A program made the translations under genes and the position numbers. From assembly GCF_033568475.1 (NCBI RefSeq), contig NC_133121.1:8990001-9054000 (forward strand): 64,000 nt of DNA, in the 5' to 3' direction. The notes under the pieces are model-generated. The model saw nothing but the letters and a program-made list of their open reading frames with translations. It had not been told where the DNA came from and did not search any database. Every line of letters starts with the position of its first letter. Position 1 is the stretch's first letter. The stretch comes from Henckelia pumila (lineage: Eukaryota > Streptophyta > Magnoliopsida > Lamiales > Gesneriaceae). Of the stretch, positions 14,720 to 54,414 are shown piece after piece.

Positions 14720-14749
14720 ATTCTGGAAATCAAGAAAGCGGAAGGCTAA

Positions 14750-16345: not shown

Positions 16346-16361
16346 ATTTATTTCAAATTAG

Positions 16362-26795: not shown

Positions 26796-26796
26796 A

Positions 26797-26820
26797 TTCT
26801 CCCCCCCCCCCCCCCCCCCC
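26797..26820 (-). other. Polypurine tract with G20 run
   Basis: On the element's coding strand this is a run of 20 G residues followed by AGAA, directly before the 3' LTR, where the plus-strand primer of an LTR element is expected. The length of the run is unusual and may be uncertain in the assembly. Confidence 0.7.
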
Positions 26821-26853
26821 TTAATTTGAATTTCGTCCTCGAAATTAGAGTAC

Positions 26854-29800
26854 TTACTCGAATAACTCCGGGTAGCGAGTCCTCATGTCTGCCTCGGTCT
26901 CCCAAGTGGCTTCCTTCTCGAAATGATTCTGCCACTGGACTTTGACCATCGGTATGACCCGCGTCCTCAATCTCCGCTCCTCTCTGGCTAAGATCTGAAC
27001 AGGCCTCTCCTCAAATACTAGATCCGGTGCTAACTGCAGAGTTTCGAAATCTAGTACATGCGCCGGATTCGAGACGTATCTCCGTAGAATGGATACATGG
27101 AAAACGTTGTGCACTGCCGCAAGCCCTGGTGGCAAAGCCAAACGGTAGGCCAACGTGCCAACTCTCTCCAAGATCTCAAATGGCCCAATATATCTCGGAT
27201 TCAACTTGCCTCTGCGTCCAAATCTCATCACCCCTTTCATAGGTGATACTTTCAGAAACACATGATCACCCACTGCAAACTCAAGATCTCGTCACCGAGT
27301 ATCAGCATAACTCTTCTGACGACTCTGAGCTGTCCTCATACGATTCCGAATCTGAATCACAATGTCTGCAATCTGCTGTACAATCTCGGGACCCAATAGA
27401 ATCCTCTCTCCAACCTCATCCCAATGAATAGGAGATCTTCATCTCCTCCCATACAAAGCTGCATAAGGAGCCATACCTATAGACGCCTAAAAGCTGTTGT
27501 TATAGGTAAACTCCACTAATGGCAATCTCGTCTCCCATGAGCCCTGAAAATCGATGACACAGGATCTCAGTAAGTCCTCAAGAATCTGTATCACCCTCTC
27601 AGACTGACCATCTGTCTGGGGATGAAAAGCTGTGCTGAACAGTAGTCGAGTCCCCAATGCTGACGTAAATTTCGGATCTCTGTCTGACACAATCGACACT
27701 GGTATGCCATGTAGTCTAACAATCTCCTTGATGTAAAACTCTGCATACTGTGTCAATGAGTAAGTAGTCCTCACTGGAAAGAAATGTGCTGACTTGGTGA
27801 GTCTATCCACGATCACCCAAATAGCCGTGCAACCTCTGGCACTCCTCGGTAAACCAACTACAAAGTCCATCGTAATGTTTTCCCATTTCCATTTCGGAAT
27901 AGGAAGAGGTCTAAGAAGTCCTGCTGGACGCTGATGCTCTGCCTTGACCTGCTGACAAGTCAAGCACTCTGACACAACTCTCCCGATGTCTCTCTTCATC
28001 CCGGGCCACCAATACAATAGCTGTAAATCTCGGTACATCTTCGTACTTTCGGGGTGAATGGAGTACGGAGATGTGTGAGCCTCTGCTAAAATCTCAGCTC
28101 TCAACTGATCGACGTTCAGTAACCACATCCTACCACAGTACTGAACAATGCCATCCACAACTGTATAAAGAAGACCACCCTTGGCCTCATCTCTCTGCCT
28201 ACAACGCTGTAACTCCTCATCAGTAGGCTGTCCATCTCTGATCCGATCTCGTAGAATCGGCTGCACCGTTAACACTGACAAGCTCGGTGCATGACCACTC
28301 GAGTAAAACTCCAAATCAAACCTCTGAATCTCGCTCTGCAGTGGTAACTGCACTGTCAAACACGATGCTATTGACGACTTCCGACTCAAAGCATCGGCCA
28401 CTACATTAGCTTTACCTGGATGGTAGCTAATGTCACAGTCGTAATCCTTCACCAACTCCAACCATCTCTGTTGCCTCATGTTCAACTCCTTCTGAGTGAA
28501 GAAGTACTTGAGGCTCTTATGATCAGTGAAAATCTTGCACTTCTCGCCATACAGATAGTGCCTCCAGATTTTCAAAGCGAAGACCACTACTGCTAACTCC
28601 AAGTCATGTGTCGGGTAGTTCTGCTCATGAATCTTCAACTGCCTCGACGCATAAGCAATAACCTTACCACACTGCATAAGTACTGCGCCTAACCCTAGCT
28701 TAGACGCATCGGTGTATACCACTAACTCCTTGTGTGGTACTGTCATCGCTAAAATCGGTGCGGTAGTGAGTGCTTACTTCAGCTGATCGAAGCTCATCTG
28801 ACAGTCTGAACTCCAAATAAACTTCGCATTCTTCTTGGTTAAGGAAGTCAAGGGTACTGCAATAGAGGAAAAACCCTTGATGAACTTCCTATAATATCCT
28901 GCCAAACCCAAGAAACTGCGAATCTCCTAAGCATTCCTCGGAATACCCCATTTCTGCACTGCCTCAACCTTCGACTGATCCACTGCAATCCCATCTCCCG
29001 AAATAATGTGGCCAAGAAATGCCACTTGCTCAAGCCAAAACTCGCACTTGCTGAACTTGGTATACAAACGCTGCTCCCTCAAAGTCTGCAAGGCTGTCTG
29101 TAGATGCTGCCTATGCTCCTCAATGCTCCTAGAGTAGATCAAGATATCATCAATGAAGACTATGATGAATTGATCACGATACGGCTGAAATACCCGGTTC
29201 ATGAGATCCATGAAAACCGCTGGAGCATTGGTCAGCCCAAATGGCATTACTAAGAACTCGTAATGCCCATAACGTGTCCGGAAAGCAGTCTTGGACACAT
29301 CTGCATCCCTAACTCGCAGCTGATGATATCCAGATCGCAGGTCAATCTTGGAGAACACCGAAGCTCCCTACAACTGATCAAATAAGTCCTCTATCCTCGG
29401 CAGTGGGTACTTATTCTTCACTGTGACCCTGTTGAGCTCTCGATAATCGATGCACAGTCTCATACTGCCATCCTTCTTCTTCACAAATAACACTGGAGCT
29501 CCCCATGGAGAAAAGCTAGGACGAACAAAGCCTTTCTCTAATAACTCCTGAATCTGTTCCTTCAACTCTTTCATCTCGATAGGAGCAAGTCGGTACGGTG
29601 CCTTTGAGATAGGCACGGTGTCTGGCACTAAGTCGATACTGAACTCCACATCTCTCACTGGTGGAATTCCCGCAACATCCTCTGAAAAGACGTCCGAAAA
29701 GTCACAAACCACTTCTATCTCTGATAATGATCTGCTAGATGGTTCTGAGGCCGTGACAATACTCGCTAGAAAACCTCGGCAACCCCATCTCAACAGCTTT

Positions 29801-31450
29801 CTCGTCTGAATATAAGATATCACATGAGGAATATCACTGCTCTGAGATGCATGGAAAGTAAACGGGTCGCCTTCCGACGGTTTCACTGACACTGTTCTTT
29901 GACTTCGAAAATCAATCGAAGCTCCATTGACTGTCAACCAGTCCATACCCAATATCAAATCAAATCCGCTCAACGGCAAAACCACAACATCTGCACGAAT
30001 AGAGTGCCCCTGCAGCTCCAACTCCAGCTCTCGGATGACACTAGAGGTAGTAATAATCTGTCCTGACGGCATAGTGACATCATAACCATTGTCGGCAATC
30101 TCAGGGGAAATGCCTATCCGTCTGATAAACTCCAGGGAGATAAACGAATGCGTAGCCCCTGAATCTAGCAACGCAAACGTGGAGTTGCCTCCAACTAGAA
30201 TTCTCCCTGCACGCAGAAGAATCCCAACAATTTCATACCACTACTAAACTTTCCCCCAAAGATGAGTCACTAATAACCCTTAATTCTAATCACAAGTAAA
30301 ACATGCTTCTTATTTTAGAATGCAGATAGGTAACCCAAATAACAAATTATTCCACAACAAAAATCGAAAAAATATTACCCAAAAGAAGAAATCATAAAAT
30401 GCTAGGGGTAAGATATACCGGTGATCAAGGAGGTATCTGGGTCTGCCTCCTCAGCCTGCATCACGAACACTCTCCCTGTAGTGTTCTTCTTCCTCGGGCA
30501 ATTGGCCATCTGGTGCCCTGGCTCTTTACAATGAAAACAAATGCCTGCTCCTAGAAGACATGGTCCCGGATGCATCTTTTGGCACTTCGGGCAAGTAGGA
30601 TGTCCTCCAGTATTAGGGGCCCCGCCCCTAGGCTGCTGTCTCTGCTGCTGTGGCTTCTGCTGGTTCGGGCCCTTAGACGGCCCAGTAAACTGCTTCTTCG
30701 CAGGAGGCTGCGAAGATGGTCGCTGATACCCAGACTGAAACGGCCTCTTACTCTGCTGCTCCATCTGGATCTCTCTCCTACCCTCCTCAGAACGCAAGGC
30801 TCTACTGACTGCAGCCTCATAAGTAGGGACGTCCGCCATGCGAACGTCATGCTTGATTTCTGCCCTGAGCCCCTCAATAAACTGTCTCATCTTCTCAGGT
30901 GCACTGTCAGCAATCAATGGCACAAGGTGACAGCCCCTCTCGAACTGTCGGATGTACTCCACAACGGTCTTGTCCCCCTGTCGGAGACTCATGAACTCTC
31001 GGATCAAGCGGCTGCGCACGTCCTCAGTGAAATACTTGGAGTAAAACATCCTCCGGAAGTCTGCCCAAAGCATAGTAGTCAGATTCACTCCTCGTGATGC
31101 ACTCTCCCACCATAAGTCTGCATCACCCTTCAGCATGTACACTGCGCACCTCACCTTGTCCGCATCAGTCAACCCCATATAAGCAAAGATGCTCTCCAAA
31201 GAACGGATCCACCCCTCAGCAACGAGTGGATCTGTGGCATTGTGAACTCCTTCGGTCCCTTCTTCTGGAACCTCTCCGCCACGTCCTCATCATGGGAAAG
31301 TCTCGGACGCACCACCTGCTGCTCCAACAGAGTAGTAATCCCAGCCATCATGTTTGCATTGGCTTGCTCCAATGCTGAAAGAGGGTTCTGCGGTGGTGGG
31401 GATCCCTCACGCCTGTTAACTGGTCTTGGAGGCATTCTGCACCACCACAT
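26854..31450 (-). pseudogene. gag-pol region of the Tekay-like element
   Basis: Domains in order on the minus strand are as follows. Gag (about 31450-30400) includes a CCHC knuckle, CFHCKEPGHQMANC. An aspartic protease follows (about 30170-29950, [11 protein letters not shown]). Reverse transcriptase (about 29650-28930) has [18 protein letters not shown] and the catalytic [11 protein letters not shown]. RNase H (about 28750-28400) has [11 protein letters not shown]. Integrase (about 28080-27490) has [29 protein letters not shown] and [11 protein letters not shown]. The C-terminal chromodomain-type tail (about 27270-26860) has HNVFHVSILRRYV. All catalytic motifs are readable; the region is broken at a few points. 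Confidence 0.93.
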
Positions 31451-31629
31451 ATTTCTTTACGTAAATCGCCATGCATAACTAAGTACTTAAAAAAAAAATT
31501 TTTGCTAATATAAATACTTAAGTCTTAAACATGCTACTACTAAATCATACTAAAAGCAATTAAAACTTACAGACCGGTAGCGTGGATTTTTGAAGTCGCA
31601 TAGTAGTGATGACCCCACCAAGAACACGT

Positions 31630-31640
31630 CTCTGATACCA
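31630..31640 (-). other. Primer-binding site, initiator tRNA-Met
   Basis: On the element strand TGGTATCAGAG starts two bases after the 5' LTR. This matches the 3' end of plant initiator tRNA-Met, the usual primer of Tekay and many Copia elements. Confidence 0.85.
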
Positions 31641-31642
31641 AT

Positions 31643-34315
31643 TGAAACAACCAAATTTTCTAAAATAACATATGCGGAAATTTTTTTTTTATCCTATGTA
31701 AAATAAATGTACATACATGCCCATACATATATGCACAACAATAAACAGATTTAAAAATAACTTAAATAAAATGCAACATTTTATACTTAAATATCTGAGT
31801 CAAACTTAAATAAAATACTGTCAAAACAATTAACTTAAAAGTTTGCATGCAATAAATTACTTAATAAAAATAGTATTAAAATTCGCCACTGAAATGACTT
31901 AAAAGAAATAAATAAATAACAGGGTTTAAAAATACTTAAAAATATTCATAATGACTCAAACGACGGCTGCGGGGGATCACTGCCTGTCTGCTCATACGTC
32001 CTCGCCGCCGGTAGGTACTACATCTTCCTCTACGTACTCACCTGCACCATATAAGTATAGTGAGCCTAGAGGCCCAACATGCTAACATAACAAGGATTTA
32101 AAATAATTTAAATCACTGAAGTACTAATACATAACATATACATGAATGGGCATGCTTAAAAATCATGAATCATAACTTAAAATCTTACTTAAACTTGATC
32201 TTAAATATAATCATATAATACATACATAAACATTGTTGAGCATAACATTTTTCTAACATCGCACGGTCATATCCATAGTGTAACCTTAAACTTAAAAGGT
32301 TCGACTGATCAGTCTCTTAAAACCAACGTACGCGGAGGTGACGAATCACCTCTTGCTAGTAGTAAACTACCCTTAAATTGACAGTAAACTGCCCTTAACA
32401 TGTGGGGGCTTGTCCCCCTTAAATTGTCACACTACTTCAACTTCCAACATAAAATTATTTTTCTTGCTCAACCTTAAACATTAAATCATGCCATAAAATT
32501 ATTTCATGAATGCATGTACTAAAATATAAATGTGTGTCCTTCATATATATTTAATTTAATTTTTATACTAACATATATATACTAAAATAACTTTTATGAA
32601 TAAAATAATTAAATATATAATTAGGGCACATGCAATTTCTCATGGTTTGTACTGAACTGCTGGCTCTAACACTCAGGCCAATTTTCTTAAATTCTGGCCC
32701 ATTAACACTGAGACTGATCCATTAACATACTTAAGCCCATTAACACATTTCTAAACCCAATAAATCAATTAAAGCCCATTAGCACATACCCAAACCAATA
32801 ACAACTTAATCTGGCCCAATGGGCCCAAAAGCCCAAAGACTGGCCCAATAACTTTCATGGGCTCCCAAGCCCATAAAAATTATCGGGCTAACTTAATTTA
32901 ATTTAATTAAGCCCAATAACAATTAAATTCAACCCAAATAATTAAATGAAACCCAATTAAATTTTTGGATTTAATTAGGCCCATTTAACCCTTAATTAAA
33001 CTTAAAACTTAAAAATAAAAATATCCGAGCCCGACTCACTTAACCCGAACCCGGACCCAACTAACATAACCCATGACTATCCAGACCCGACCCGAACCCA
33101 CTCAAAACCCTAAACCCGATCCCTACTTCCCTTTTCATGCGGCCGCGAGCAGCAGCCCTTCTAGGGCTGCTGCCGCCTAGCTCTGGCCGCCCCTGACCGG
33201 AGCTCTGCCGCCCAGACGTGGCCCACGTCTGGGCGGTCCTAACCTGACCAAGGCCCCGACCCTATGCAGCCCACGCACAGAGCACCGAACCCCCTTCCAT
33301 CAAACCCTAAACCTGCGACCCCAAGCCCGATCCTGCACCAGCACCTACCTGGGCTTGTTTGGCTCGAACCACTCGAGCCACTTGAGTCCAGACCACCCTC
33401 ACACGACTTAGGGACCCCTGACCAGCAGCTATACTACCATGGAGGGAGAAAAACGTGAGCTTGAATGAAGAAAGCACATGAACGAGCATCAAGAACAAAA
33501 CCGTCTCATTTTTCTGAAAATCTATGAACAAATCGATGCATACACAACACACACATAATAATCACTGATATAGTGCGAAAAAGAGGAAGAAAACATGTCT
33601 ATCACCGACGATGAGAGCTAGAATGCGTAGGCGACGATTCCGGGACGACGGGACGACGACAACCACTTGAAGCTTCAACAAAAATCGGCTATGGTGACTT
33701 AGGGCCTACTGACCAATTGGGAAGGTGATGGAGGCGGCTGTGGGCGCTTAGGGTGAGTAGAAGATGGAATGAGCGTGTGATAGGGGATTTGGGCGATGGT
33801 TTGGGTAGTTTAGGATAATAATTTTGGAAAAATAGATAATCTAGGAGATAATAACATAATTACAAAGGTTCCTAAGTTTTTAAAATATTGATAACTTAAA
33901 TAAAATATCACAAATCTCGAAATATTAAATTAGGGGATTTTTTTAAAGATAATAAAAAGTCAATAACATGGCTTAATTTGGGTAAAAACGGACTCCTAAA
34001 GTTATATAAAATTAAATACTGATAATTTTGAGGGCATAAAACTCAAAATAATATTTTTGGGCTCTAAAAAGACTCATAAAATAATTTGGGTAGAAAGTTG
34101 TCATCTCGTCCGTCCACGGTCCCGTCTACGCGATAAAATAACTAAATTTCCATAAATCATGAAAAATCTCTAATTATGGGTTAAATGCTTAAAAATAACT
34201 TAAAACATGCACGAATAATTTCACATAATTATTTAACCCATAATCTAAAATTCTAAATAAATAAAATCCCTAATTATGCATGCGAATTTACGTACTAAAA
34301 ATACTGGGTGCTACA
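31643..34315 (-). repeat. 5' LTR of the Tekay-like element
   Basis: This is the partner of 24113-26795, with the same ends and about 98% identity by eye, including the GC-rich middle. It is followed by the target duplication ATATG. Confidence 0.93.
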
Positions 34316-35495
34316 ATATGTATATATATCGTGACCATTAAAGTTATTAAATAAAATGTAGAGTGATGATAAATTTTGTGTTTCTGATTAGATTGATACT
34401 TAAATTAAATTATGATTGATAATTTTTCGTTGTTGAGAGCATTATTGTTTTCATTCTATATTTTGTTGTAGCCAATAAATTATTACCGATTTGTTTGATT
34501 TATAGTAAATTCATTCATAATTTCAATTTCTAAAATAAAATATAACTTAACGTGTTATTAATTTCATCCCGCCAAAGTGAAAATGAGTTAAATTTTGAAT
34601 ATAAGAAAATACACAACTCAAGTATTGAATTAAAATTGATATAATATATATATATATACCATTAAAGTGATTAAATAAAATTTAGAGTGATGATAAATTT
34701 TGTGTTTTTTTATATCTAACCACATTTTTTAGTAATTATAGTTATTTATTGAAATGCAATTAAAGAAGCAATTATGTTTTTAATTAATACAAAGCATAAT
34801 ACGGTGTAAAATGATACAATGTCATTAAATAGATGAACATATAAAAAATAAATATATAATGTAATATTTAAATAAATATTATAAAATAATAAAATATATA
34901 ATTACAATTTATAAATTCAGATAAGATCTTGATAAAAAATTTGCAGATCAATTCAAAAAATTTCGAATTTTATGAATTCAAAATTGTAGAAGAAATCTTT
35001 TGATCTTACGTAATTTTTTTTCCTCAAAATCTGCTTGCTCTTAAGATAGATTAAGACCTTTGCTCTTATCAATTTATGCGTAATTTTTCATAGAAAATTT
35101 TTTAAATTTTTTATTATCTCTAAAAAAATTATTTAATATATTAAAAATTTTTATTTGTGGATATACTATTATTTGGTTTTTAACATTGCTAAAAATATTA
35201 TTTTGATAATATTTTAGCTTTTCTTTTGTTATCTAAACGTTTTTTAACTTTGGTAATTACATATTTTTATTATATAATACATATTTAATTTAAGGTTTTA
35301 AAATGTTGAAATATATCAATTATTATATTCTATTATTATTTTTTAATATAATAATAGTACTCCGATTCGCCTGTCCGGTTGAACCGGTTGAACCGTTTTT
35401 ATGGTTTACCGGTTTGATTACGATTTGGTTATGAAAACATTGATATCTAGTACATCATATATATATATATGATGTGTCAAACATATTATACAAAT
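34316..35495 (-). other. Helitron intron-like AT-rich sequence
   Basis: No exon is recognisable. Two segments are repeated elsewhere: 34325-34385 recurs near 34650-34705, and 34840-34995 recurs at about 36110-36270. A short GGTTGAACCGGTTGAACCG stretch near 35380 resembles motifs found in some MITEs but has no delimitable ends. Confidence 0.4.
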
Positions 35496-37539: not shown

Positions 37540-37800
37540 AATAATGAATTAATGAAACACCTAAACATATATATGATTGGTGTGAAATTTCATCAAACAA
37601 TTGGCGGTCATTTCGTAGATATGATATGAAAATGGTTTTCAGATGAGAAATTAATTTACCAGCAAAGACAAATGACATCTCCAAAATCAACAAACAAAAA
37701 ATAGGAGAAATGAGCATATAAATTTTGAATTGAAGATTCAAGAACACCCCGAATTTGAATCACCTAAATGCATATTTAGTTCCAATAGTTATTTCTTAAG
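37540..37800. repeat. Diverged partial copy of the 741-bp repeat
   Basis: The sequence from GTGTGAAATTTCATCAAACA through AAATGCATATTTAGTTCC matches the start of the units at 44.44-45.9 kb at roughly 80-85% by eye, in the same orientation. It lies just left of the CACTA element, while the other copies lie to its right, so the CACTA landed between repeat copies. Confidence 0.7.
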
Positions 37801-37949
37801 GAACCGATAATATTATCATTTTGTTTATCTAGAAAATATTTTGCCTGTTGTATTCTGCATCAAACCGCAAGTGGTCAATTGAAAATTGAAAATAACTGGC
37901 CAGCATGTGTGTACAACCACTACACCAAATTGTGGTATCAACAACACTT

Positions 37950-38270
37950 GAATGACAACGGTTTTCTTGAAAAACCGTTGTCGTTTTGTCTTTAACAATG
38001 GTTTTTACTAAAACTGTTGTTGTTGGCCCTTTTTTAATGAACAAAAACAACGGTTTTTTAAAAACCATTGTCGTATATGTGTCAAAGACAACGGTTTTAA
38101 AAATCGTTGTCTTTGAGCGGGTTTTTTAAGCCCTACGACAACGGTTTTAATTAACTGTTGTCTATGAGCGGATTTTTGGGTTATACGACAACGGTTTTTT
38201 TAACCGTTGTCTTTTTTTTATTGTGTTATGTAAGTTAAGACAACATTTTTCTTAAACCGTTGTCGTTTTC
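37950..38270. repeat. Left subterminal repeats of the CACTA element
   Basis: About ten copies of ACAACGGTTTT or its complement occur, often as head-to-head pairs such as ACGGTTTTAAAAATCGTTGT. In CACTA elements such motifs bind the transposase (family knowledge). Confidence 0.85.
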
Positions 38271-38307
38271 ATTCTTTTTTTTTCTTTTTTTAAACTCACA
38301 TAATAAT

Positions 38308-38311
<4 letters not shown>

Positions 38312-38350
<39 letters not shown>

Positions 38351-38364
38351 CACACACACACACA
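38312..38364. repeat. (TA)n(CA)n microsatellite
   Basis: About 17 TA repeats followed by about 8 CA repeats. Confidence 0.9.
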
Positions 38365-39240
38365 ATTTCCTGCACAAGCCCTAGCCCAACCTCAATATAT
38401 CGCTACTTCCACCTAGCTTCTTGTTTCTATTCTTCTTCGCCTACTTTCTCTCTTCTTGCTCCCTTCCTTTCCTTCCTTACGTCGTCGCCTCTCATCCACA
38501 CCAACCGGCCCCTCCTCCAAGAAAGTCGCACGATCTTCACCTTCTTTTTCTCTCCCCACACTTTTCATGTTTCAATGGATTCCTTCGAGGCAGGGGGCTC
38601 ATGCCCTGTTTTGGCTTACTCCGCCTCTGCTCCCAGCTAGGATTTCGGTTTTACGCTGTATCTTTTAATTGGATCCCCACTCGGCCTCATTTCTCGACCT
38701 CGCTTTACAAAAGCCCTAAACCCTAGAACCGCTGCTCCACGAAAGCGGAAGATTTTGTGAAAAGCTCCTTTGCTCCTCGCAGTCGATGGCCACCGCCGTA
38801 CTTCTTAGATCTCTCTGTCGCCAAGATTTCACTTCAGCTCCGGTTTCTGTTTTCAGAACAGTATGCTTATTTTTCTATGACTTGCGTTCTGAATTTGTTA
38901 TTATTCTTCGATATGATTATGTGTGATTTATTCTTGATACGTGTTTATTTAGGTAGTTTCTCAGATTGATTTAGTGTTACGGTTTGTTTGATTTTGAGTC
39001 CTTGTGCTGTGTGAACTTAGTGTATGTTCTGATGTCTTCGGATCATTTCGATTATGACGTGGGTATCTTTGAAGCTGGGTAGATATTTTTCCTTCTTTCT
39101 TTCTGTCCTTCGTCTTCTGCGTTTTGTATTGGTCTTTGACTAGTAGAAGCATCTCTATGTTCTTTCTATTCATTATATGCTCGAAGATTTTGAGTCTTCT
39201 TCTTTGTTGGTTATTTCCTCAGCTTTTACGTGGTCTTAAT
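38360..39240 (+). pseudogene. 5' end of a mitochondrial HSP70 gene (exon 1 at 38786-38860)
   Basis: Mitochondrial HSP70 is the matrix chaperone and import motor. Exon 1 encodes MATAVLLRSLCRQDF followed by TSAPVSVFRT, the conserved start of the plant mtHSP70 presequence (recalled form MATAALLRS-RRR-). It ends at a GT donor at 38861. The 400 bp before it are C/T-rich with an ATG-proximal ACCCTAGAACC stretch and look like promoter plus 5' UTR. The 380 bp after it read as intron. Only 25 codons are present; no ATPase or substrate-binding domain is in the window. The arginine-rich run is changed (LCRQ instead of RRR-type). It is a captured piece of a host gene in the CACTA element. Confidence 0.8.
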
Positions 39241-39599
39241 TTTTCGGGAGTACTTTTTATTTGGAGGTGTTAGATAATTTACCTAAGCGTTTGAAATGTA
39301 AGTTCAAAGAAATTTCCGCTAAAACTAGGTAGAATTTTAATAATTAATAAAAATATATAAATATACATAAAATGACATCTTTTCACCGACGAGTGTAAGG
39401 CTAAAAAGGATTAATGACTTGTAAGATATCAAATAAAAAAAAATAATTCAAATTCGATATCCAAATATAGCAAGTTATTAAAAAATCTCTTCATCAAATT
39501 ATCTAATGGGGACCTTACACTTTCTACCAAAACCTTCACACCATTTGTTATATATACTATATTGGGTGAAGCACACTTTATTGTCTAATAATTGGATAA

Positions 39600-39706
39600 C
39601 AAAGCATAGGGGAAAGTCGCCGCGCCGGTTCAGCCACTCATCGGCTCTTTCAGGATAGTTCGCTTTCGACCATCTATTTCCGGCGACGTGGTTGCTGCAG
39701 ATTGTG
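39600..39706 (+). pseudogene. GC-rich exon-like piece, gene not recognised
   Basis: A 100-bp GC-rich segment (GTCGCCGCGCCGGTTCAGCC) stands out from AT-rich surroundings and ends at a good donor (GTAAGT at 39707). It resembles a 5' UTR or first exon. No family could be assigned. Confidence 0.35.
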
Positions 39707-40329
39707 GTAAGTTGAAGCTAAATTAGAAGATTATTTGGTTTGAAGGTATTAGTACCTCTGTTTCTTCTTTATTTTGGCTTTTATTCTTCCCTTCCCTTTA
39801 TGTATGTTATGAAAAAATGCTTTATATATGATTCATGATTTCGACCATCTCTTTATATGTTGTTACGAGTTCACACAATTTTGTTCAAACTATGAATTAA
39901 AGTTGTTTGATTTGACTCGATAATTTTTTGAGCTTAACTAAGAAAGTTCAAAATATTTTGTTTGATCGATGTAATTTATAACACAATTTTTTTTTTTATG
40001 TTTTTTACATTTATTTTCAAGTTCAGTAGGTTACCTGCGATTGTGTGTTTTTTAATTTTACTTGTTTTGTAAGGGAAATGATAAATTTACGTTCATTCCC
40101 TGGACCAAACTTAAAATGTACATGCCCAAAACTTGCTGGTTTCCTATAATAGGATCTTATAAATTAGGCGAGGTTAATTATTTGTTGGCCAAGTATTGTA
40201 TGTGTGATCATGTGTGCATGTCTTGCTTTTCCAAATTCAAGAAAGCACATGAACCTCTTAATTTTCCAAACCCAATGGGCACATATTGCAACCCCATATA
40301 TAATATTCTAATACTGACTTTGAAATGAT

Positions 40330-40432
40330 TCAAAGAAACTCTTTAGCTTCTTGCTGCCTCTATAAATACACAGGGTTTGCAACACCATTACAAGGGAAAA
40401 AAGGCATCAATTAACTCATACTACCATTCAAA
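40330..40432 (+). promoter_or_regulatory. Captured core promoter and 5' leader of the TFL1/CEN-like gene
   Basis: CTATAAATA at about 40361-40369 lies ~65 bp before the ATG at 40433, with an A-rich leader between. The AT-rich 300 bp upstream may also be captured promoter. Confidence 0.55.
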
Positions 40433-40838
40433 ATGGCGAAAATGGCGACGAATCCTCTTGTTATCAGTAGAGTTATTGGATATGTTGTCGATCACTTCTC
40501 GACCACTGTTAGAATGTGTGTTACTTACAACTCGAACAAGCAAGTGCTGCACAATGGCTACGAGCACTTTCCTTCTGCAGTCACTTGTAAACCTAGAGTT
40601 GAAGGTCATGGAGGTGATCTCAGATCATTTTTCACCTTGGTAAGTAATTATATATATGCTTCTTGATTTTATTGTGCCAGTTTACTGCTGACGGCTAGTT
40701 TTGTTCCTGGTTTAATTTCTGAGCCACATGGATGAAATATATGTACATTTACTTTCTTGGGTTTTTGTATCATCATATTATCACAGACCCGGATGTTCCA
40801 GGTCCAAGCGATCCATATCTTAGGGAGCACTTGCACTG
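40433..40838 (+). pseudogene. TFL1/CEN-like PEBP gene fragment, exons 1 and 2
   Basis: TFL1/CEN proteins are PEBP-family repressors of flowering that act with FD-type bZIP factors. Exon 1 (40433-40639) encodes [20 protein letters not shown], then [18 protein letters not shown] and [10 protein letters not shown], and ends at GTAAGT. Exon 2 (40777-40838) is exactly 62 bp, the usual size in this family, and encodes [18 protein letters not shown]. It ends at a GT donor. The acceptor before exon 2 is AT instead of AG (40775-40776), so normal splicing should fail; unspliced read-through would give 77 residues. Several conserved positions have changed (GYVVD for GDVVD, VEGHGG for VEVHGG). Exons 3 and 4, with the ligand-pocket and segment-B regions, are absent. 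It is a captured fragment within the CACTA element. TFL1 versus CEN versus another subgroup cannot be settled from this part. Confidence 0.92.
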
Positions 40839-40840
40839 GT

Positions 40841-40843
40841 ATA

Positions 40844-40901
<58 letters not shown>
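40841..40901. repeat. (GT)n(AT)n microsatellite
   Basis: About ten GT and twenty AT repeats directly after TFL1-like exon 2. Confidence 0.9.
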
Positions 40902-40904
<3 letters not shown>

Positions 40905-41170
40905 ATATATTCTTTTGCATATATACACGCATTTTATGGTGTAAAAAATATATATGACCAAGTTCGTAAGTTTACTACGGTTCTTTCAAGTTTATGGAGC
41001 ATCATTTTTCGTAAGCAAGAGTTCATTACAGATACCGCGAACGACGATCTTCCATCGTACATAAACTATGATTTTTAGTGTTCATATTCAACTCATTAAT
41101 TTTAACAAATTTTATTTCCTCACTACTTTTGTTATTTCACGTTAATTTATTAATTTTAATCAACTTGAAG

Positions 41171-41232
41171 AATGCTAGAAAGGAAATAAACAAAATTACT
41201 ACTGATTTGAAAGATGAGCTTGGTAAACCAAG
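41171..41232 (+). pseudogene. Possible exon, gene not recognised
   Basis: A 62-bp open segment between AG and GT encodes NARKEINKITTDLKDELGKP. Its end phase does not fit the next recognised exon at 41980, so if real it needs an intervening exon or belongs to another gene. Confidence 0.3.
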
Positions 41233-41979
41233 GTATGAAGTTCTCACTCTCCATTTTTTTTTGGAAAAAATATGCTTTTTATTTCCAACTTTTCCTTGTG
41301 ATACAGATTAGAACTTCTTTCTTTTTTTGAGGTGCTATTTAACTTTTTCCTTGATACTTGATAAATGGTGAAAAGTTGGTTTTGTTTTATTTTGTTTCGT
41401 TTCTTTTTGTAATAAAAGAAGTCGCAAAGAAACAAAAATCATAAAAGGGTTGTCTTGAAAAGTTTGAACTACGGAATACCCCTTATTGTCAAAATAGCAT
41501 TTGTATGTAACTCAAAAAGTACTCTCACGCAGTATATTGCTTGTAATCTTATTATAATGACTATTAAAAATGATTTTCTCGAATTTGTTTTCTATATTTT
41601 TCTTGAGTTTTCTGGGAATAGTTGTCATTATGAAGGCCATCTGATATTTTATCTTCATGTGTCAATTGTTTTATTAGTTGGACAAATTGTCTACATTATG
41701 ATAATACTCTTTTATGTTGTTTTATGATCCATGATCATGCTGGGTTTTCATATGCTGCTTTAACTTGAGATCGTCTTTAAATTGGAGGTTATGAAGGTTA
41801 AGGATTGAGATTTGGTATTACTTGTTTTACGATGTTCAAATCTCTATGTACGGATCTTAGATTCTTGAAACAATATCTTTATTTATTGTTGGGCATTGGT
41901 GTTCTTGGAATTTTGAAGGGTGACGTTTGAATAACTTACATGGGATCCATCAGAAACTCTTTTCTTGCTATTTTTGTAG

Positions 41980-42735
41980 GTTTCCTTCCCAGATATCTTG
42001 GCAGAACAACTAACAAGTCAGGTTCCTATTTAATTTCCTTCATAATTTTAGTGCTAATTAGCTAGTGACTATAATTTTTATTTTATTTAGCCAATATTCT
42101 ATGTGGTGATTTCACTTTCATTCATTTGAGGGCCATACTTTTAGAAGTTTGCAATTTTACATTTGCATTTGTTGAGTTCTTTTCTATTTATACTTGAATT
42201 GTGTTTATGATTTTTTGCCTTTTCTTTTTAATAATTTACAGATTGGAGATCCAATTCTGAAGTAAGTTTTTCATCTGATACTGCTTCCAAAATGGAAATC
42301 ACCAATGACAATGTTATCATTGAAGACAAGTGTACCGTAAAAGATTCTGTGTCGCAATCTAGCCAAATCCATATCATGGGTGTTCTCGACGAAATTATAG
42401 CTGAGGAAAGAAATAACAAGGTATCATACATATCAATTTTTGTCCTTACTATTATCTCGGTTTAAATTCAAAAACTTATTCATATGATATGTTTCTTGCT
42501 TATAAAGTGATAATAATGCGGATGCACAAATATATGATATATGCAATATAAATTTGGATGGATCAGATTTATTCCTCTATATGGCAACACCTTGGGATTT
42601 AGCTTTCCACAGGTCCCTAAGATAGCCACGTGCATTGATAATATACTTGATAGGCTGATACTTGTTAAATTTTTGCAGAAAACATTATGTCCGGCTGGTT
42701 TATGTCGAGTTCACTACGATAAAGCTGCTAAATAA
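41980..42735 (+). pseudogene. Last three exons of an unrecognised gene within the CACTA element
   Basis: Three segments, each bounded by AG acceptor and GT donor, join in one frame: 41980-42021 (FLPRYLGRTTNKS), 42242-42420 (starting DWRSNSEVSFSSDTASKMEI and ending MGVLDEIIAEERNNK) and 42613-42735 (VPKIATCIDNILDR to CRVHYDKAAK, then TAA). Phases match at both junctions, and there are no stops in about 114 codons. The protein is acidic and serine-rich in the middle; no domain is recognised. It could be the 3' end of a captured host gene or a transposon-specific protein. The preserved frame argues that capture was recent or that the piece has been maintained. Confidence 0.5.
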
Positions 42736-43143
42736 ATTGTTTATGGTTGTTTTTTAATTATTTTTTTACTTGAGGCTTGTGTTTTGATCTTGTTGTATAA
42801 TACTTTTGGAATCAAAAGTATTTGTATTTTACATGTACCTAAAATAATGTTAATTTTCTTATGATATCAAACAAGAAGGCAGATCCATGCTAGTATGAAT
42901 TAAAGTTGGGAGGCTAGCTATTGGGATGTGGAGTGAAACTTGAAATGGTGTGTGGTTTGAGTTATTGGGATTTTGTGGAGTGGAACTTGAAAGTGCCAAA
43001 TCCATGGTTTAGCTTGTGGCCTGTGGATTGGTCGGAGCCCACGGTTTGTCAACTGTGTCTACTATATTTTATGAATTCATTCAATACAAATGCAAAATGA
43101 GTTGAATAAAATCTGCACTGCCTTTCCTTTTGGAGTTGCTGAG

Positions 43144-43164
43144 TTTTTTTTTTTTTTTTTTTTC
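43144..43164. repeat. T-rich homopolymer tract
   Basis: About 20 consecutive T residues. Confidence 0.8.
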
Positions 43165-43604
43165 CATGACAAGTGAGATATTAGTTTGATAGTTGAGATT
43201 GAATTCCATGTTTAAATTGGTCTAAGATTTTGTTGATAATTTTGGACTGAGAATGTGTTTTCTTGTAGGTAACTCGGGAGTAATGCATAAGGGGTTTTGA
43301 TGCAAGGATTGAGCTGTGTTTCAGATCGCCTTGGTAATACGTAGAAGTCATCTCGTGAACATCGTTATCAAGAACAAACACATGATGATTTATGTTTTGA
43401 TACAACCATCTTTTGGAACTACTTTTGTTACATTTATATTATATTAGATGAGATATTTTGAGTTTTAACTACGTAGTATTATCTTCCAAATTAGATGTGT
43501 GTAACTATTTTGGAACTTGAATATTTTCATGGATTCAATGTAGTAAATATTTTATTTTATATTGATTTCTTTATTAATATTTATAGTTCGTATGAAGATT
43601 AATT

Positions 43605-44062
43605 AGGCAACGGTTTTAATGACTCCAAATACAACTGATTTATGTTATTGCAAAACCGTTGTCGTATACCACAAACGACAACGGATATACACTGTTGCAA
43701 AAACCATTGTCGTCATTCAAAAACGACAACGGATATACACTGTTGCAAAATCGTTCTTGTAATCCACAAACTACAACGAATATAAACTGTTGCAAATATG
43801 TTGTCCTAAGCCATAAACAACAACGGATATAAACTGGGCAAAACCGTTGTCTTAAATAGTAAATGACAATGGATTTACACTGTTGCAGAACCGTTGTCTT
43901 TGGAGACTTACAACAACGGTTACAAACTGTTGCAAAACCGTTGTCGTTGGATAGCAAGCACAACGGATATACACCGTTGTTATATGGCACGCTTTTTACA
44001 ACGCCCCCAGTTACAACGGTTTTATCCCCCCCCTATGACAACGGATAATATCCGTTGTCGTT
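43605..44062. repeat. Right subterminal repeats of the CACTA element
   Basis: More than ten alternating copies of ACAACGGATATA and its relatives with TTGCAAAACCGTTGTCG, spaced about 30-35 bp, end at the terminal repeat. They mirror the left subterminal array. Confidence 0.85.
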
Positions 44063-44084
44063 TTGCGATTTTCTTGTAGTGAAC

Positions 44085-44440: not shown

Positions 44441-44460
44441 TTTGTGTGAATTTCATCAAA

Positions 44461-45980
44461 CAGTTGGCAATCATTTTGTGAATATGATATGAAAATAGTG
44501 TTCAGATGATAAATAAATTTACCAGCAAATACAAATGACATTTCCAAAATCAACAATCAACAAACACAAAAAAGCGAGAAATTAGCACATAAATTTTGAA
44601 TCAAAAATTCAAGAACACCATAAAGTTGAATAACCTAAATGCATATTTAATCTCCAATATCCGACAAATTAGAAGAGAACCAATGAAATTGTGTAAACAT
44701 AGAAAAAAAACTTAATCCATGTATAATAAACAAACAGAAAAGAAACAAACAGACAATAAATTCATTATTCATCCAAATAAGTAAAAAATTCGTGAAAGCT
44801 GACTGAAGTAAAGAGAGTAAATATCGGATTGCTGGGAAGAATCGATTACCTTAGAACAAAAAATGGAGAGCCAGTTGGCCGATTATATGGTCCCAAAATT
44901 TTTGATTGCAGGGAAAGGCCGATTATAACTACTGGGAATTTTCAGTGCTACAAAGTGCGATTATTGAAACTTTTAGAAATCTTCACGATGAAAATTTTTG
45001 GTTATGACGGTTTCCGGCTGGCTTGTGAAAATGAATAGAGTGTGAAGCTCTTGGTTGTTGCGAAACGTTGGGAAGGAAATATAATGAAAGAGATAATACC
45101 TGATTCATCGAGATGAATCAGTTGGAAACGTGTTTCTGATATAAACGTGGGTAGAAATTCAAAAGACCATGGATGATATGTGAGTATTTTGTGTTTTTAC
45201 AGTTGGCAGTTATTTTGTGAATATGATATGAAAATAGTGTTCAGATGATAAATAAATTTACCAGCAAATACAAATGACATTTCCAAAATCAACAATCAAC
45301 AAACACAAAAAAGCGAGAAATTAGCACATAAATTTTGAATCGAAAATTCAAGAACACCATAAAGTTGAATAACCTAAATGCATATTTAATCTCCAATATC
45401 CGACACATGAGAAGAGAACCAATGAAATTGTGTAAACATAGAAAAAAAAACTTAATCCATGTATAATAAAAAAACAGAAAAGAAATAAACGGACAATAAA
45501 TTCATTATTCATCCACAAATAAGTAAAAAATTCGTGAAAGCTGACTGAAGTAAAGAGATTAAATATCAGATTGATGGGAAGAATCGATTACCTCAGAACA
45601 AAAAATGTAGAGCCAGTTGGCCGATTATATGGTCCCAGAATTTTTGATTGCAGGGAAAGGCCGATTATAACTACTGGGAATTTTCAGCGCCACAAAGTGC
45701 GATTATTGAAACTTTTAGAAATCTTCACGATGAAATTTTTTGGTTATGACGGTTTCCGACTGGCTTGTGAAAATGAATAGAGTGCGAAGCTCTTGGTTGT
45801 TGCGAAATGTTGGGAAGGAAATATAATGAAAGAGATAATACCTGATTCATCGGGATGAATCAGTTGGGAACGTGTTTCTGATATAAACGTGGGTAGAAAT
45901 TCAAAAGACCATGGATGATATGTGAGTATTTTGTGTTTTTACAGTTGGCAGTCATTTTGTGAATATGATATGAAAATAGT
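44461..45980. repeat. Tandem 741-bp repeat, copies 1, 2 and the start of copy 3
   Basis: Copy 1 begins near 44460 with CAGTTGGCAATCATTTTGTG, copy 2 near 45201 and copy 3 near 45942: exact 741-bp spacing. Copy 3 stops after ATAGT at 45980, where the Copia element inserted, and resumes at 58245. Copies agree at about 97-98% by eye, so the triplication is recent. Each holds a 22-bp perfect or near-perfect palindrome, CTGATTCATC-N2-GATGAATCAG (45100-45121, 45842-45863). Similar 69-codon open frames in copies 1 and 2 look like by-products of duplication. The function of the unit is unknown; it could be promoter and 5' UTR of a host gene. Confidence 0.88.
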
Positions 45981-46183
45981 TGAAGAAATTGGAAAAAGGA
46001 TAATACTCATTCATATTGATTTCATACATATTACAAACATATATAAAGATATGTGATTAGCCTAGGAATATGGATGTACAATCATTAGTTCCTAAGAATA
46101 AGCCTATACAGAATATTAGCTCTAATTATCTCCACTAATTTAGCTTGACATATATACACAGAATATTCTTCTATGCTCCAATA
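45981..46183 (-). repeat. 3' LTR of the Copia element
   Basis: It starts TGAAGAAATTGGAAAAAGG and ends CTATGCTCCAATA on the plus strand, and matches 58042-58244. The polypurine tract follows it directly. Confidence 0.9.
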
Positions 46184-47043
46184 CTCCCCCTCAAGCTGGA
46201 TCCAAAGGATTTATGGCTCCAAGCTTGCTCAAAAGCCTGTGGAACTGTGTAGTTGTCAACACTTTGGTGAACACATCAGCTAGTTGATCATTGGAACGCA
46301 CATATTGAGTGTCAATTAATTTGGATTGAACTTGTTGATGAATGTAGTGACAGTCTACTTCAATGTGTTTGATTCTTTCATGAAACACGGGATTAGAAGC
46401 AATGTGCATAGCGGCCTGATTATCACAAAAAAGTTTCATAGGAATAGAACTAGGACAACCTAGATCAATAAGAAGACTATTAAGCCATACGAGCTCACAT
46501 GCTGTGGAGGCCATTGCACGATACTCAGCTTCAGCGCTAGATCGAGCAACCACATGTTGTTTTTTACTTTTCCAAGAAACCAGATTACCACCAAAAAACA
46601 TACAATAACCAGTAGTAGAAAGGCGATCAAGTGCATTCCCAGCCCAATCAGAATCGGTATATCCCATAATATTAGTGTGGCCATTACAGGTCATGACTAT
46701 TCCATGACCAATCGTACCCTTCAGATACCGCAAGATTCATTTTACCATGCCTAGATGTTGAATGGTTGGAGCATGCATATGTTGACTAACAAGACTAACT
46801 GCAAACGTAATATCTGGTCTTGTGATAGTCAAGTAGATGAGCTTTCCCACAATTTACTGATAATAGCTTGGTGAGTCTAGGGCTTTTTCTGTAGAAGCAA
46901 GCCTCAATTTGCTATCGAGAGGAGTAGCAGCGGGTTTGGTGTGTAACATCTCAGCATCTTGAAGTAAGTCTAAAATGTATTTACGCTGGTTAAGGAATAG
47001 CCCTTTGCTGGAAGCCGCCATTTCAATTCCAAGAAAGTACTTC

Positions 47044-49654
47044 TGAAACATCTACTACTAATACATGCGGAATTTTTTTTTAAAAAATAATACTAAGTAA
47101 AATATATGTACATACATGCCCATACATATATGCACAAAATAAACAGATTTAAAAATAACATAAATTAAATGCAACATTCTTACTTAAATAACTGAGTCAA
47201 ACTTAAATAGAATACTGTCAAACAATCCACTTAAAAGTTTGCATGCAATAAAAATTATTTAATAAAAATAGTACTAAAATTCACCACTGACAAACATAAA
47301 AGAAACAGAGTTTTTAAAAATTCTTAAAAATATCCATAAAGACTCAGCCGGCGGTCACGGGGGATCACTGCATGTCCGCTCATACGTCCTCACCACCGGT
47401 AGGAACTACATCTTTCTCTACGTACTCACCTGCACCATTTAAGTGTAGTGAGCCTAGAGGGCCAACATGCTAACATAACAAGAGTTTAAAATAATTTAAA
47501 TCACTGGAATACTAATACATAACATATAAATGAATGAGCATGCTTAAAAATCATGAATCATGACTGAAAATCTTGCTTAAACTTGATCTTATATATAATC
47601 ATATATTACATACATAAACATTGTTGAGCATAACATTTTCTAACATCGCATGGTCATATCCGTAGTGTAACCTTAAACTTAAAAGTTCGACTGATCAGTC
47701 TCTTAGAACCAACGTACGCGGCGGTGACGAATCACCTCTTACTGGTATTAAACTACCCTTAAATTGACAGTAAACTGCCCTTAACATGTGGGGACTGGTC
47801 CCCCTTAAATTGTCACACTACTTCAACTTCCAACATAAAATTATTTTCTAGCTCAACCTTAAACATTAAATCATGCCATAAAATTATTTCATGAATGCAT
47901 GCACTGAAAATATGTCCGTAATATATATTTAATTAATTTTTCATAATATAATATACTTATACTTAAAATAGACTTTATGCATAAAAATAATTAAATATAT
48001 ATCCCGGACTTATTTATTTTTCATGGGTTGGTCCAGACTGCTGGTCACTCATCTAGGCCCAATAATCTTAAATAAAAGCCCAATCATTTTATTCAACTTA
48101 AATGGGCCTAAAGAAAATATTTAAGCCCATTAACTTAAACAAGCCCAATAAGACTCTAGACAGACCCAAAAATCTCCTGACTGGCCCAAAAATTCTATGG
48201 GCCCACGAGCCCATAAAAATTATTGGGTTAGCTTAAAAATAATTTAAAAAACCCAAATAAAATTATTTGGAGGCCCAAATAATTTTCTAACTAATTTTAA
48301 AAGCCCAAAATACACTTGAACCATTAAATACTTAAAAATTAAAATACCCGAGCCCGACCCACCTAACCCAGACCCAGACCACCTGACCCAACCCTAGACC
48401 TACCAGACCCGACCCTGACCCCAAGACCCGACCCAGTCCCCAGCCCCAGCCCAAAACCCGAACCCCCCCTTTCCCCTTCTCTTTGCTGCGCGAGCAGTAG
48501 CCCTTCAAGGGCTGCTGCCGCACGGCTCCGGCCATACCGGCCAGAGCGCCGCTGGCAGGACCTTCCCAGGGTCCTGCCGGTCCTAACCCATGCAGCCCTC
48601 TGACCCATAACAGCCCTGCATGGTCCAGCCGAGCTCTCTTCCAATAAACCCTAACCTGCGAACCCATGGACCCAAATCTGATGCAACTCGACTCCAGACC
48701 TGTTCCAGCCTTAACCCTGGCCATGGCTCAACCCCTATGACCCCAACACACCCCTTGACTCTTGAACCAGCAGACCGATCCCATCCCATAACAGAAAACG
48801 TGGGGTTTTGCATGAAACAAAGCAAAAATCATGAGTTTACCATGTTCTAGCCAAGAACTTAACATAAAACGTGAATTTCCTAAAAAAAAAAATCTGACAT
48901 CAGTGCATTAAATAGCTTATATGGTGTTGAGAAAGAATTAAACATGCCTTTATAATTGTTTGAAGTAGGTTGATGCGTATAAGGGCTCCGGGACGACGAA
49001 CGGACCAAAAACTCGATAAATCTTCAAAGAACGAGTTGATCGGCTATGGAGGACTATTTTTTTGAGATGGAGGCGTGAAGAGGGTTTGGAAGAAGGTGGG
49101 AGTCGGCTGATTAGGGTTGAGAGATAGGGTAGGTTTGTTTTAAATTTGATAAATAGAATTAAAATAGGATATTAACTAATTTAGAAATAAAATCATACCT
49201 AATTAAATATTTAAAACTCCATAATAACTTAATAATTCTGATAACACAACCCAAATCCCGAAATATAAATTTAAGGGATTTTTAAAATTTAATAAAAATC
49301 ATTAAAATGACTTATTTTGGCTAAAAATAAACCCTTAAATAAATATATAACTAAATACTAAATTTTTCTTGACAAAATACCTTAAAATATTATTTTAAGA
49401 CTCATAAAACTCATAAAATATTTTTGGCTAAATATTTTGGTATCTCGTCCATCCACGGTCCAGTCTACGCGATCAAAACAATTAATTTCCATAAATCATG
49501 AAAAATCACTAATTATGGGTTAAATGCTTAAAAATAACTTAAAACATGCACACATAATTTCACATAATTATTTAACCCATAATCTAAAATTCTAAATAAA
49601 TAAAATCCCTAATTATGCATGCGAATTTACGTGCTAAAAATACTGGGTGTTACA
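47044..49654 (-). mobile_element. Solo LTR of the Tekay-like Gypsy family, nested in the Copia element
   Basis: The sequence begins TGAAACATCTAC and ends GGGTGTTACA. It is colinear with the LTRs at 24113-26795 and 31643-34315 but clearly more diverged. The 5-bp duplication ACTTC flanks it exactly (47039-47043 and 49655-49659). No internal region remains, so this is the product of recombination between two LTRs. It lies within the Copia reverse transcriptase region. Its GC-rich centre (about 48340-48760) yields long G-rich open frames that are not genes. Confidence 0.92.
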
Positions 49655-52600
49655 ACTTCAATGAACCAAGATCCTTGATTGGAAATTTGTGTTGAAGTTG
49701 CGTTTTTAATTGAGCAATAGAGTCATTATTATTCCCGGTAATAATGAGATCATCCACGTAGATTAATACCACAAGTTTGTCAACTGAACCAAGCCGGACA
49801 TAAAGAGACGAATCAGCTGAGCTCCTTCTAAAACCAAGAGATTCAAGAGCAGTGCTCAACTTGGCATGCCATGCACGGGGACTTTGTTTCAAACCATAAA
49901 TTGATTTATGGAGTTGACAGACTAAGTTGGGATTGTCACTTTGAGGGTGCCCGGGAGGAAGCTTCATAAACACCTCTTCCTCGAGATCACCATGCAAGAA
50001 TGCGTTTTTGACGTCCATCTGAAACAAGGACCAACCTTTATTGATAGCAACTGATAAAAGAACTCGTACCGTGGTCATCTTGGCAACGGTAGCAAAAGTT
50101 TCCTTGTAATAGACACCAAATTTCTGAGTGAAACCTTGAGCAACAAGACGTGCTTTATGCTTATCAAGAGAACCATCGGAGTTGAATTTCACTTTAAACA
50201 CCCAGAGACTGCCAACTGCATGTTTTCCCAGAGGAAGAGTCACTATAGTCCAAGTTTTGTTCTCAACAAGAGCAGTTAATTCTTCATGCATAGCTTTCTG
50301 CCAAAAAGTCTGGGATTTGGCTTCATGAAAGTTCTTTAGCTCAGGAACGTTTGATATAGCTGTAAGGAAAGCTCTATGCAAGGGTGATAGTCGTTGATAT
50401 GACATAAAATTAGTGACAGGATACCTGACCGTATGAGCAACATAATCTGCAAGTTTTGTTGGAGGGTGACGCATCTGCGGAGGATTACGTCGGGAAGATA
50501 TTGGTTCACCTTGTGTATGAGAACAATTTTTCTCTGGTGATTCTATAATAAATTCCTTGGAAAGAGCACTAGAGAGATCCAAGCGATCATCACAATGTTC
50601 TGAAGTAGCGCGGCTAGGATGTAAATCTTGAGTGGGTTGTAGATCTTGAGTGGATTGGTGACCATAATTAATGCTAGGTAAGGGAAATAGCTCAGACAGC
50701 TTCTCCCCCTGACCAGATGCAACAAAATATGGAATTTTTTCAGCAAAGCGGACATCTCTAGTCACATATAACTTCTTGGAGAGAAAATCAAAACATTTGT
50801 ATCCCTTTTGTGTTTTAGAATAACCAAGAAATATGCACTTAATAGCTCGAGGATCAAGCTTGTCATGGTGAGCAGTTGGGACATGTACAAAACAAGTGCA
50901 AGCAAAAATTCTGAGATGGGACAAATCTGGTGCCTTGTCCTGCAATACTTCAAGAGGACATTTAAAATCCAGCACTCGGCTGGGTAAGCGATTCACAAGA
51001 TAGGTTGCAGTAAGAATACCATGAGACCAAAACTGTTTTGGGACATTCATTTGAAGCATTATGGCTCGAGTTTTCTCAAGCAAGTCACGATTCTTACGTT
51101 CGGCAAGACCATTTTGTTGAGGTGTACTAACACAACTAGTCTGATGCAATATTCCGTGAGAAATCAAATAATTTGTCATGGTATGAGACATATATTTGGT
51201 GCCATTGTCAGATCGAAGAATTTTAATATGAGCTGAAAATTGAGTGGTAACCAACATGTGAAAGTCTTTAAAGAACTCAAAAACTTCACTTTTTGATTTC
51301 AATAAGTACACCCAAGTAACCCTAGAGAAATCATCAATAAAAGTTACAAAATATTTAAATCCATCTAGAGAGGAGGAAAAAGGTCCCCAAACATCTGAAT
51401 GTACAATCTCAAATGGTTGAGTAGTACGAGACAATGATGAGTTAAAAGGAAGCCTAGAAGACTTAGAAAAATGGCAGATATCACAATCAAGAGTTCCTTT
51501 GGGTAGAACTCGATTTATTTTGCTAAGAACATTATTTGAAGGATGTGCGAGACGATGATGCCATAAATCTTGCTCAATAATGGGAAAGGAAATAGCCTCG
51601 AATCCCTTGGTAACCTGAGAGTTAGAGGAGAAGTAGTAGAGTCCATGCAAATGAAATCGTTCACCAATCATCGCCCTGGTGACGGGGTCCTAAAATATGA
51701 CCTTGTGAGGAGTAAATATAACTTCACAATTGAGTGATGATGTCAGTTTATGAACAGAAAGCAACTGAAATGTAAAGGAGGGAACATATAGAACATCGGA
51801 CTCTATAGTATCTGAAACAAGTTTAATTTTGCCCTTACCCTGTACAGGAGCACCTTTCCCATTTGCTATAGATACCAAAGAAGGTGTAGAAAAAGGATGA
51901 AAATCATAAACATGGGTTAACTTATTTGACATGTGATCTGTGGCACCAGAATCAATGATCCATACATCATGCAAATTATTAATTTTGAATGCAGTTAGAA
52001 AGGCAATTTGAATACCTTGGTTGGTATCAGAATTTGCATCAGCCAAAAAACCAGCAAATTGACTAAGAAGTGCAGCTGATTGATCTTTTTCCTGATTAAT
52101 AGATCTACCTTGGACAGCTTCCTGACCATGCCTATTTTGTAAATAATTTGCAAAATCATTAAGTAAAGCAACATGATTAGAGGAAAAAGATTCAATGGAG
52201 TGAGTAGCCATATGAGCCTTATGATCAGGGATTCGTTTTTTTATATCCTCCACCCTTCTGATCCTTTGAAAATTTGGGCTTCAACTCTGGGTGAAGAGTC
52301 CAACAACGATTAATCGAGTGACCAGTAATATAGCAATGCTGACATTTGAGATCAGGGCGTTTGCCCTTGTAAGACTTTTCTTCAGAGGATGAGTGAGTAA
52401 TATAGGCACGACACATCCGGAGGATTGGGAATAACAGAACTGGGCATGACTTTCCGGCTTATTTCCTCACGCTGAATAGTAGCGCAAATATTCTTGAAGG
52501 ATGGTAACTCGGTATTCATTAGAATATGGCTCCTTAGATCCTCAAAATCAGGATTAAGACTAACCAATAGCTGAAAAATATGGTCCTCCTCTGCAAAATA

Positions 52601-52919
52601 GCTGCATCAATAGAAGGAGGTCTATAAATCTCCAACTCGCTCCACAAACTCTTCAGACTCCCTAGCAAATTTACGAATGGCTTCCCATCTTGTTGAATAC
52701 TTGCAATCTCCCTGTGAATTTGGAAGATCCTTGCAGAATTGTTTTGGTTGCCATACATGTCACGAACGACATTCCAAAGATCCAAAGCAGATTCAGAATA
52801 GCTAAAAATTGCTGCAAGATAATGCTCCATCGAGTTAAGAATCCATGACATAACCTGTTGGTCCTTTGACAACCAAGCCTCATACTCTGACGAACTTTAT
52901 TCAGGAGATTTGGAAGTAC

Positions 52920-54205: not shown

Positions 54206-54414
54206 AATTTTGGTGCCGTTGCCGGGGAAAGGCGTTTAATTTATTTTTGTTTTTGTTTTTGTTTCTTTGTTTTTTTTATTATTCCTCCTAGTGCTACTCT
54301 GGTTTGTTCGTGCGTGCAGGTGAATCTTCGGAAGAAGAAGAATTTCCATATGACCCAGAGATAGAAAGAATTTTGCTTAGGCGAAGGGGGATTCTTGCGG
54401 TGTAATACTTTGAG

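Follow-up and report, generated by a model that had tools for sequence, protein, structure and literature searches.

A Candidate Pack-CACTA Element Carrying a CEN/TFL1-Like Gene Fragment and Likely Further Pieces of Host Genes

Introduction

The segment 37918-44081 (6164 bp) of a 64,000-nucleotide stretch of Henckelia pumila contig NC_133121.1, called the window below and numbered from its first letter, has the outline of a CACTA transposon. Its interior raises the question of whether such an element has taken up parts of several host genes, a flowering regulator among them, as an initial annotation made from the sequence had proposed, and whether anything could be produced from these parts. 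The analysis favors a non-autonomous element of the Pack-CACTA type with gene fragments, at a probability of roughly 0.88; the host coding DNA that this class calls for is present as exons of a CEN/TFL1-type gene.

Ends and Class of the Element

The boundaries of the element comprise the following features:

37915-37917: target-site duplication AAC, left copy
37918-37930 (+): left terminal inverted repeat CACTACACCAAAT, 10/13 positions in agreement with the right end
37918-38300: left subterminal region, 8 CAACGG/CCGTTG motifs
43591-44081: right subterminal region, tandem units of about 47 bp, 14 CAACGG/CCGTTG motifs
44069-44081 (-): right terminal inverted repeat, 10/13 positions in agreement
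44082-44084: target-site duplication AAC, right copy

The CACTA/TAGTG terminal inverted repeats (TIRs) read CACTACACCAAAT at the left end (37918) and TTTTCTTGTAGTG at the right end (44081), the latter being CACTACAAGAAAA on the minus strand, and they are directly flanked by the 3-bp duplication. CACTA/TAGTG pairs lying 0.5-20 kb apart are numerous in the window (n = 586), nine of them have identical 3-bp flanks, and the pair described here is the only one of these nine whose ends agree at 10/13 positions or more. Papers retrieved with the end sequences were, by title, unrelated. The element is present in the window as a single copy. The motif CAACGG/CCGTTG occurs 22 times in 874 bp of subterminal sequence (8 in the first 383 bp and 14 in the last 491 bp, the latter array being the tandem repeat), while it is absent from the 5290-bp interior and occurs six times in the remaining 57,836 bp of the window. 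The ends, duplication and arrays represent the anatomy of the CACTA (En/Spm) superfamily, far beyond chance, and agree in full with the initial annotation, which had placed both ends, the AAC duplication and both subterminal arrays here.

No transposase was recognized in the element. Its longest stop-to-stop frame does not exceed 133 aa and a six-frame Pfam search gave no match; therefore, the element was classified as non-autonomous. Viral contigs contained no match to the subterminal motif and seven exact matches to the left-end pattern; the latter were taken as chance, their number being near the estimate for a collection of this size. A plasmid search returned no match.

Two direct copies of a roughly 210-bp part of a 740-bp repeat lie on either side of the element (37577-37787 and 44441-44659; identity 83.6%), and similarity to its left flank recurs in repeat units at three positions on the right side of the element. 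Neither 37788-37917 nor the right flank scores above its own best shuffle.

The CEN/TFL1-Like Piece

Three features of the interior relate to a gene of the CENTRORADIALIS/TERMINAL FLOWER1 (CEN/TFL1) type:

40361-40367 (+): TATA-like box, a consensus match only
40433-40639 (+): CEN/TFL1-like exon 1, 207 nt, donor GTAAGT, identified by PDB search
40777-40838 (+): CEN/TFL1-like exon 2, 62 nt, preceded by AT in place of AG and with ATC in place of the Met codon, identified by PDB search

Translation of the two exons yields the first half of a protein of the CEN/TFL1 type, as evidenced by a PDB search with E-values of 2.2e-38 for Antirrhinum CEN and 9.1e-31 for Arabidopsis TFL1; two FT sequences and Hd3a were matched at E 4.5e-21 to 9e-21. 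Identity to CEN extends over 66 of the 87 aligned residues. The translated piece ends in EHLHW, the histidine of which marks TFL1-type rather than FT-type proteins. An exon 2 of 62 nt is conserved in FT/TFL1 genes, and the second exon has this length if it starts where that of its relatives does. The identity of this piece is firm, and the two exons named in the initial annotation are confirmed. The TATA-like box, in the putative promoter region, is located 72 bp before the ATG and is one of three consensus matches in the 343 bp scanned. The one viral-contig locus retrieved with the CEN query appears to be a fortuitous match within DNA of bacterial or phage origin.

The piece looks like a decayed relic, because exon 2 is not preceded by an acceptor AG, the bases at this place being AT, and residues shared by its relatives have been changed: where the five solved relatives all have D, L and V/I, this piece has Y, H and G. 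In exon 2 the Met codon of the relatives reads ATC.

The mtHSP70-Like and Four-Exon Pieces

The other exon-like parts of the interior are as follows:

38786-38860 (+): probable coding part of mtHSP70 exon 1, 25 codons, donor GTATGC, with GC-rich leader-like DNA upstream; compared with a plant presequence
about 39616-39706 (+): further GC-rich exon-like piece, donor GTAAGT, start uncertain; suggestive only
41171-41232 (+): four-exon piece, exon a, donor AAG/GTATGA, start uncertain (41079 in the chain search)
41993-42021 (+): four-exon piece, exon b (start at 41954 in the chain search)
42242-42420 (+): four-exon piece, exon c
42613-42735 (+): four-exon piece, exon d, ending in TAA

The 25-codon frame in front of the first GT donor reads MATAVLLRSLCRQDFTSAPVSVFRT. 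From its fourth residue it resembles a plant mtHSP70 presequence, with 14 of 22 residues identical, which makes mtHSP70 exon 1, as proposed in the initial annotation, a plausible assignment supported by this comparison only; a PDB search with this frame gave no match at E up to 10, and a literature search for presequence strings brought up no paper. The piece at about 39616-39706 is an addition to the initial annotation, and its coding score of 8.5 falls within the background.

Downstream of the CEN/TFL1-like exons, four GT-AG exons follow one another in a single phase from 41171 (or 41079) to the TAA at 42735. The initial annotation had described three in-phase exons of an unknown gene; the in-phase chain is upheld, but it consists of four exons rather than three. 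When the longest open chain was sought under the requirement of AG/GT donors and YAG acceptors, with dinucleotide shuffles as the null, the best one measured 524 nt. It agrees with the chain above in its three donors, its last two exons and its stop, but its first and second exons are longer. This length was reached by 2 of 400 shuffles (2 in 60 in a first run), and the best chains of the controls were reached much more often: in 79/400 for the antisense of the stretch, 159/400 for a shorter adjoining 3' stretch and 136/400 for a flank. On the basis of the shuffle test, the four exons are probably the in-phase 3' part of a second gene. This piece had no Pfam match above the cut-off (SENP3_5_N scored far below the family cut-off) and no credible PDB match (best E 0.95), and none of its 61 pattern matches in bacterial and archaeal genomes is a relative.

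Several observations weigh against a CACTA element with captured gene pieces. The TIRs are imperfect, with three of the 13 terminal positions differing, and the flank similarity within the window yields no empty site: when the joined flanks are aligned, it stops at about 37787, before the insertion point. Remnants of internal CACTA arrays, which capture by tandem fusion might leave, were not seen. The exons were already known when the rules of the exon-chain search and the stretch searched were set; the 393-nt chain drawn by eye was reached in length by 15/400 shuffles, and 103/300 shuffles contained a single open frame as long as that at exon c (76 codons). A crude codon-usage score failed to single out the four-exon piece, the CEN exon being at background as well, and Pfam missed even the certain PEBP piece. 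The last point implies that the silence of Pfam on short fragments means little. The codon-usage score, trained on retroelement frames, is too weak for this purpose: 80 null-DNA segments reached 8, against 8.6 for the CEN exon, and its best values inside the element fell on the GC-rich leader, read on the minus strand.

These results bear directly on the possibility that every resemblance other than that to CEN is due to chance, so that the element carries one captured gene. The mtHSP70 assignment involves 25 residues and one comparison sequence, PDB giving no match, the third piece lacks a database match and gains no support from codon usage, and the chain drawn by eye is within reach of shuffled DNA. 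Against this, the 524-nt chain is matched by shuffles in only 2 of 400 cases, and the mtHSP70-like identity at 14/22 positions begins near the start of the frame and leads to a GT donor. A single captured gene is considered unlikely.

Origin of the Interior and Possible Transcripts

Capture of three or more host genes is likely. The pieces are unequally documented: the CEN/TFL1 piece was identified by database search and the mtHSP70-like one by comparison with a single plant presequence, while the third gave no database match. We infer that the pieces derive from separate intact donors. The recognized pieces all lie on one strand, as the initial annotation stated.

In En/Spm systems, transposase supplied in trans acts on the ends and arrays and moves the element, while host pieces ride as passengers. 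In this case a related autonomous element would have supplied transposase acting on the ends described above. The interior would have been replaced by host DNA of several loci, probably mtHSP70, a CEN/TFL1 gene and the four-exon gene, and perhaps one more. The captured pieces, which now share one orientation, would then have been inserted with the element at the AAC site, where they may persist as passengers decaying under little selection. The capture model described for such elements involves tandem insertion followed by aberrant excision (PMC13317346).

Alternatively, the CACTA ends could have taken up, in a single event, one chimeric locus that existed beforehand as a result of segmental duplication or of another transposon such as a Helitron. 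The common strand of the recognized pieces is consistent with this, as is the lack of any subterminal motif in the 5290-bp interior, since repeated tandem fusions might have left array remnants. Helitron frames do occur in the same window, though about 14 kb away. However, three or four pieces would be found in the same strand order with a chance of 1/4 to 1/8 anyway, and six-frame Pfam analysis revealed no transposon protein inside the element, where no dedicated search for Helitron or long terminal repeat (LTR) ends was made. Uptake in a single event is rated as improbable.

Concerning the products of captured pieces, the initial annotation had suggested chimeric or antisense-silencing transcripts. 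Chimeric transcripts are possible: phase 0 is found at the end of both the mtHSP70-like exon (75 nt) and the CEN-like exon (207 nt), and joining them in frame to the four-exon chain predicts 155 and 199 residues, respectively. If the element is transcribed, any remaining promoter and splice sites could yield chimeric RNAs by analogy with Tgm-Express1 of soybean. For the antisense part of the suggestion no sequence support was found. It was set aside because the longest internal inverted repeats among those listed are TA/CA/TG microsatellites; in addition, the pieces share a strand.

A rival reading is an expressed chimeric gene under selection, in which the four-exon part would be joined either to the mtHSP70-like exon or to CEN-like exon 1 with its putative promoter. 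The in-frame joins speak for it, as do the donors, which begin with GT. Yet each in-phase join has a chance of about 1 in 3, the acceptor of the first join (TTGAAG/AAT) is weak by eye, inclusion of CEN exon 2 introduces stops, and CEN exon 1 departs from its relatives at shared residues. Selection for such a gene is rated as very unlikely. An even lower probability is assigned to a working new gene in which the CEN-type promoter or the mtHSP70-like leader would be spliced in frame to the four-exon part, because the join acceptor is weak and CEN exon 2 brings stops. If this were true, the resulting protein of 199 or 155 residues would mimic the start of a flowering repressor or go to mitochondria.

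Other Repeats in the Window

The window is AT-rich (35% GC) and full of frames of Helitron, Ty3/gypsy and copia transposons. Apart from the CACTA element, it contains the following repeats:

7028-10063, 14748-16360 and 61982-62408: diverged repeat blocks, direct and inverted, partly matching one another
20066-23446 (-): Helitron remnant, whose PIF1 helicase and Helitron_like_N frames lie in different pieces
24113-34317 (-): Ty3/gypsy element with gag and RNaseH/integrase frames and an apparent ATATG duplication; its LTRs of about 2.7 kb (24113-26797 and 31643-34317) are 97.2% identical
45981-58244: copia-type element enclosing the next two features, its short LTRs (about 203 bp) being 96.6% identical
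47059-49655: divergent copy of that gypsy LTR (78-84%), which may be a solo LTR, within copia frames 46191-52280
52920-57813: element bounded by AGTAC at either end, its LTRs about 1.29 kb long and 97.4% identical

The copia-type element interrupts a tandem repeat of about 740 bp (44460-45980 and 58244-58950). The only frame of at least 150 aa in the element 52920-57813 is 54406-55179, which has no Pfam match. This is possibly a gag-only, TR-GAG-like non-autonomous LTR element.

Comparison With Known Gene-Capturing Elements

Precedents for CACTA elements that carry captured host sequence have been described (PMC1947982, PMC5105172, PMC8903248, PMC13317346, PMC8978399). Because gene capture is a documented habit of such elements, the element characterized here is a good example rather than a new kind: in kind it is ordinary, and it is a clear candidate for a multi-gene Pack-CACTA element. 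What it adds to the known class is an uncommon passenger, the 5' part of a CEN/TFL1 gene. No capture of a TFL1/CEN/FT gene by a CACTA element was found among the papers listed by searches of an open-licence library, which makes this a limited absence; flowering-gene terms occur near CACTA or gene-capture terms in PMC11060688 and PMC5056178, but the passages concern other matters. Should donors come to light, one-step and stepwise capture could be told apart by how far each piece has diverged from its own donor.

Like the Pack-CACTA and other Pack-TYPE elements of Arabidopsis, maize and rice, the element combines TIRs and a target-site duplication with coding DNA, no transposase being recognized. 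Pack-TYPE elements are called by genome-wide gene matches and multi-copy clusters, whereas the present element is known from one copy in the window.

Among the CACTA-like elements of Chenopodium, captured pieces include an 80-bp APETALA2 fragment (PMC8978399). They share with the present element CACTA ends with subterminal units; unlike it, those with captured pieces keep transposase domains, and the end sequences differ in the passages compared.

Elements of the Tpn1-family of Ipomoea nil are non-autonomous, with conserved ends and interiors replaced by host sequence; they produce 3-bp target duplications, with one exception, and have an average length of 7,081 bp (PMC5105172). The present element is similar in the anatomy of its ends, its duplication and its probably replaced interior, a likeness by description that assigns no family membership.

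Tgm-Express1, a soybean CACTA element of 5.7 kb, harbors exonic and intronic segments of five genes, from which spliced chimeric RNAs are formed (PMC1947982). It differs in the genes captured and in its location in an intron of F3H (the wp allele), where chimeric RNAs were demonstrated, while the recognized neighbors of the present element are transposons. Both elements belong to the CACTA superfamily; Tgm-Express1 carries pieces of several unrelated host genes in which splice sites are kept (PMC1947982), as the present element probably does.

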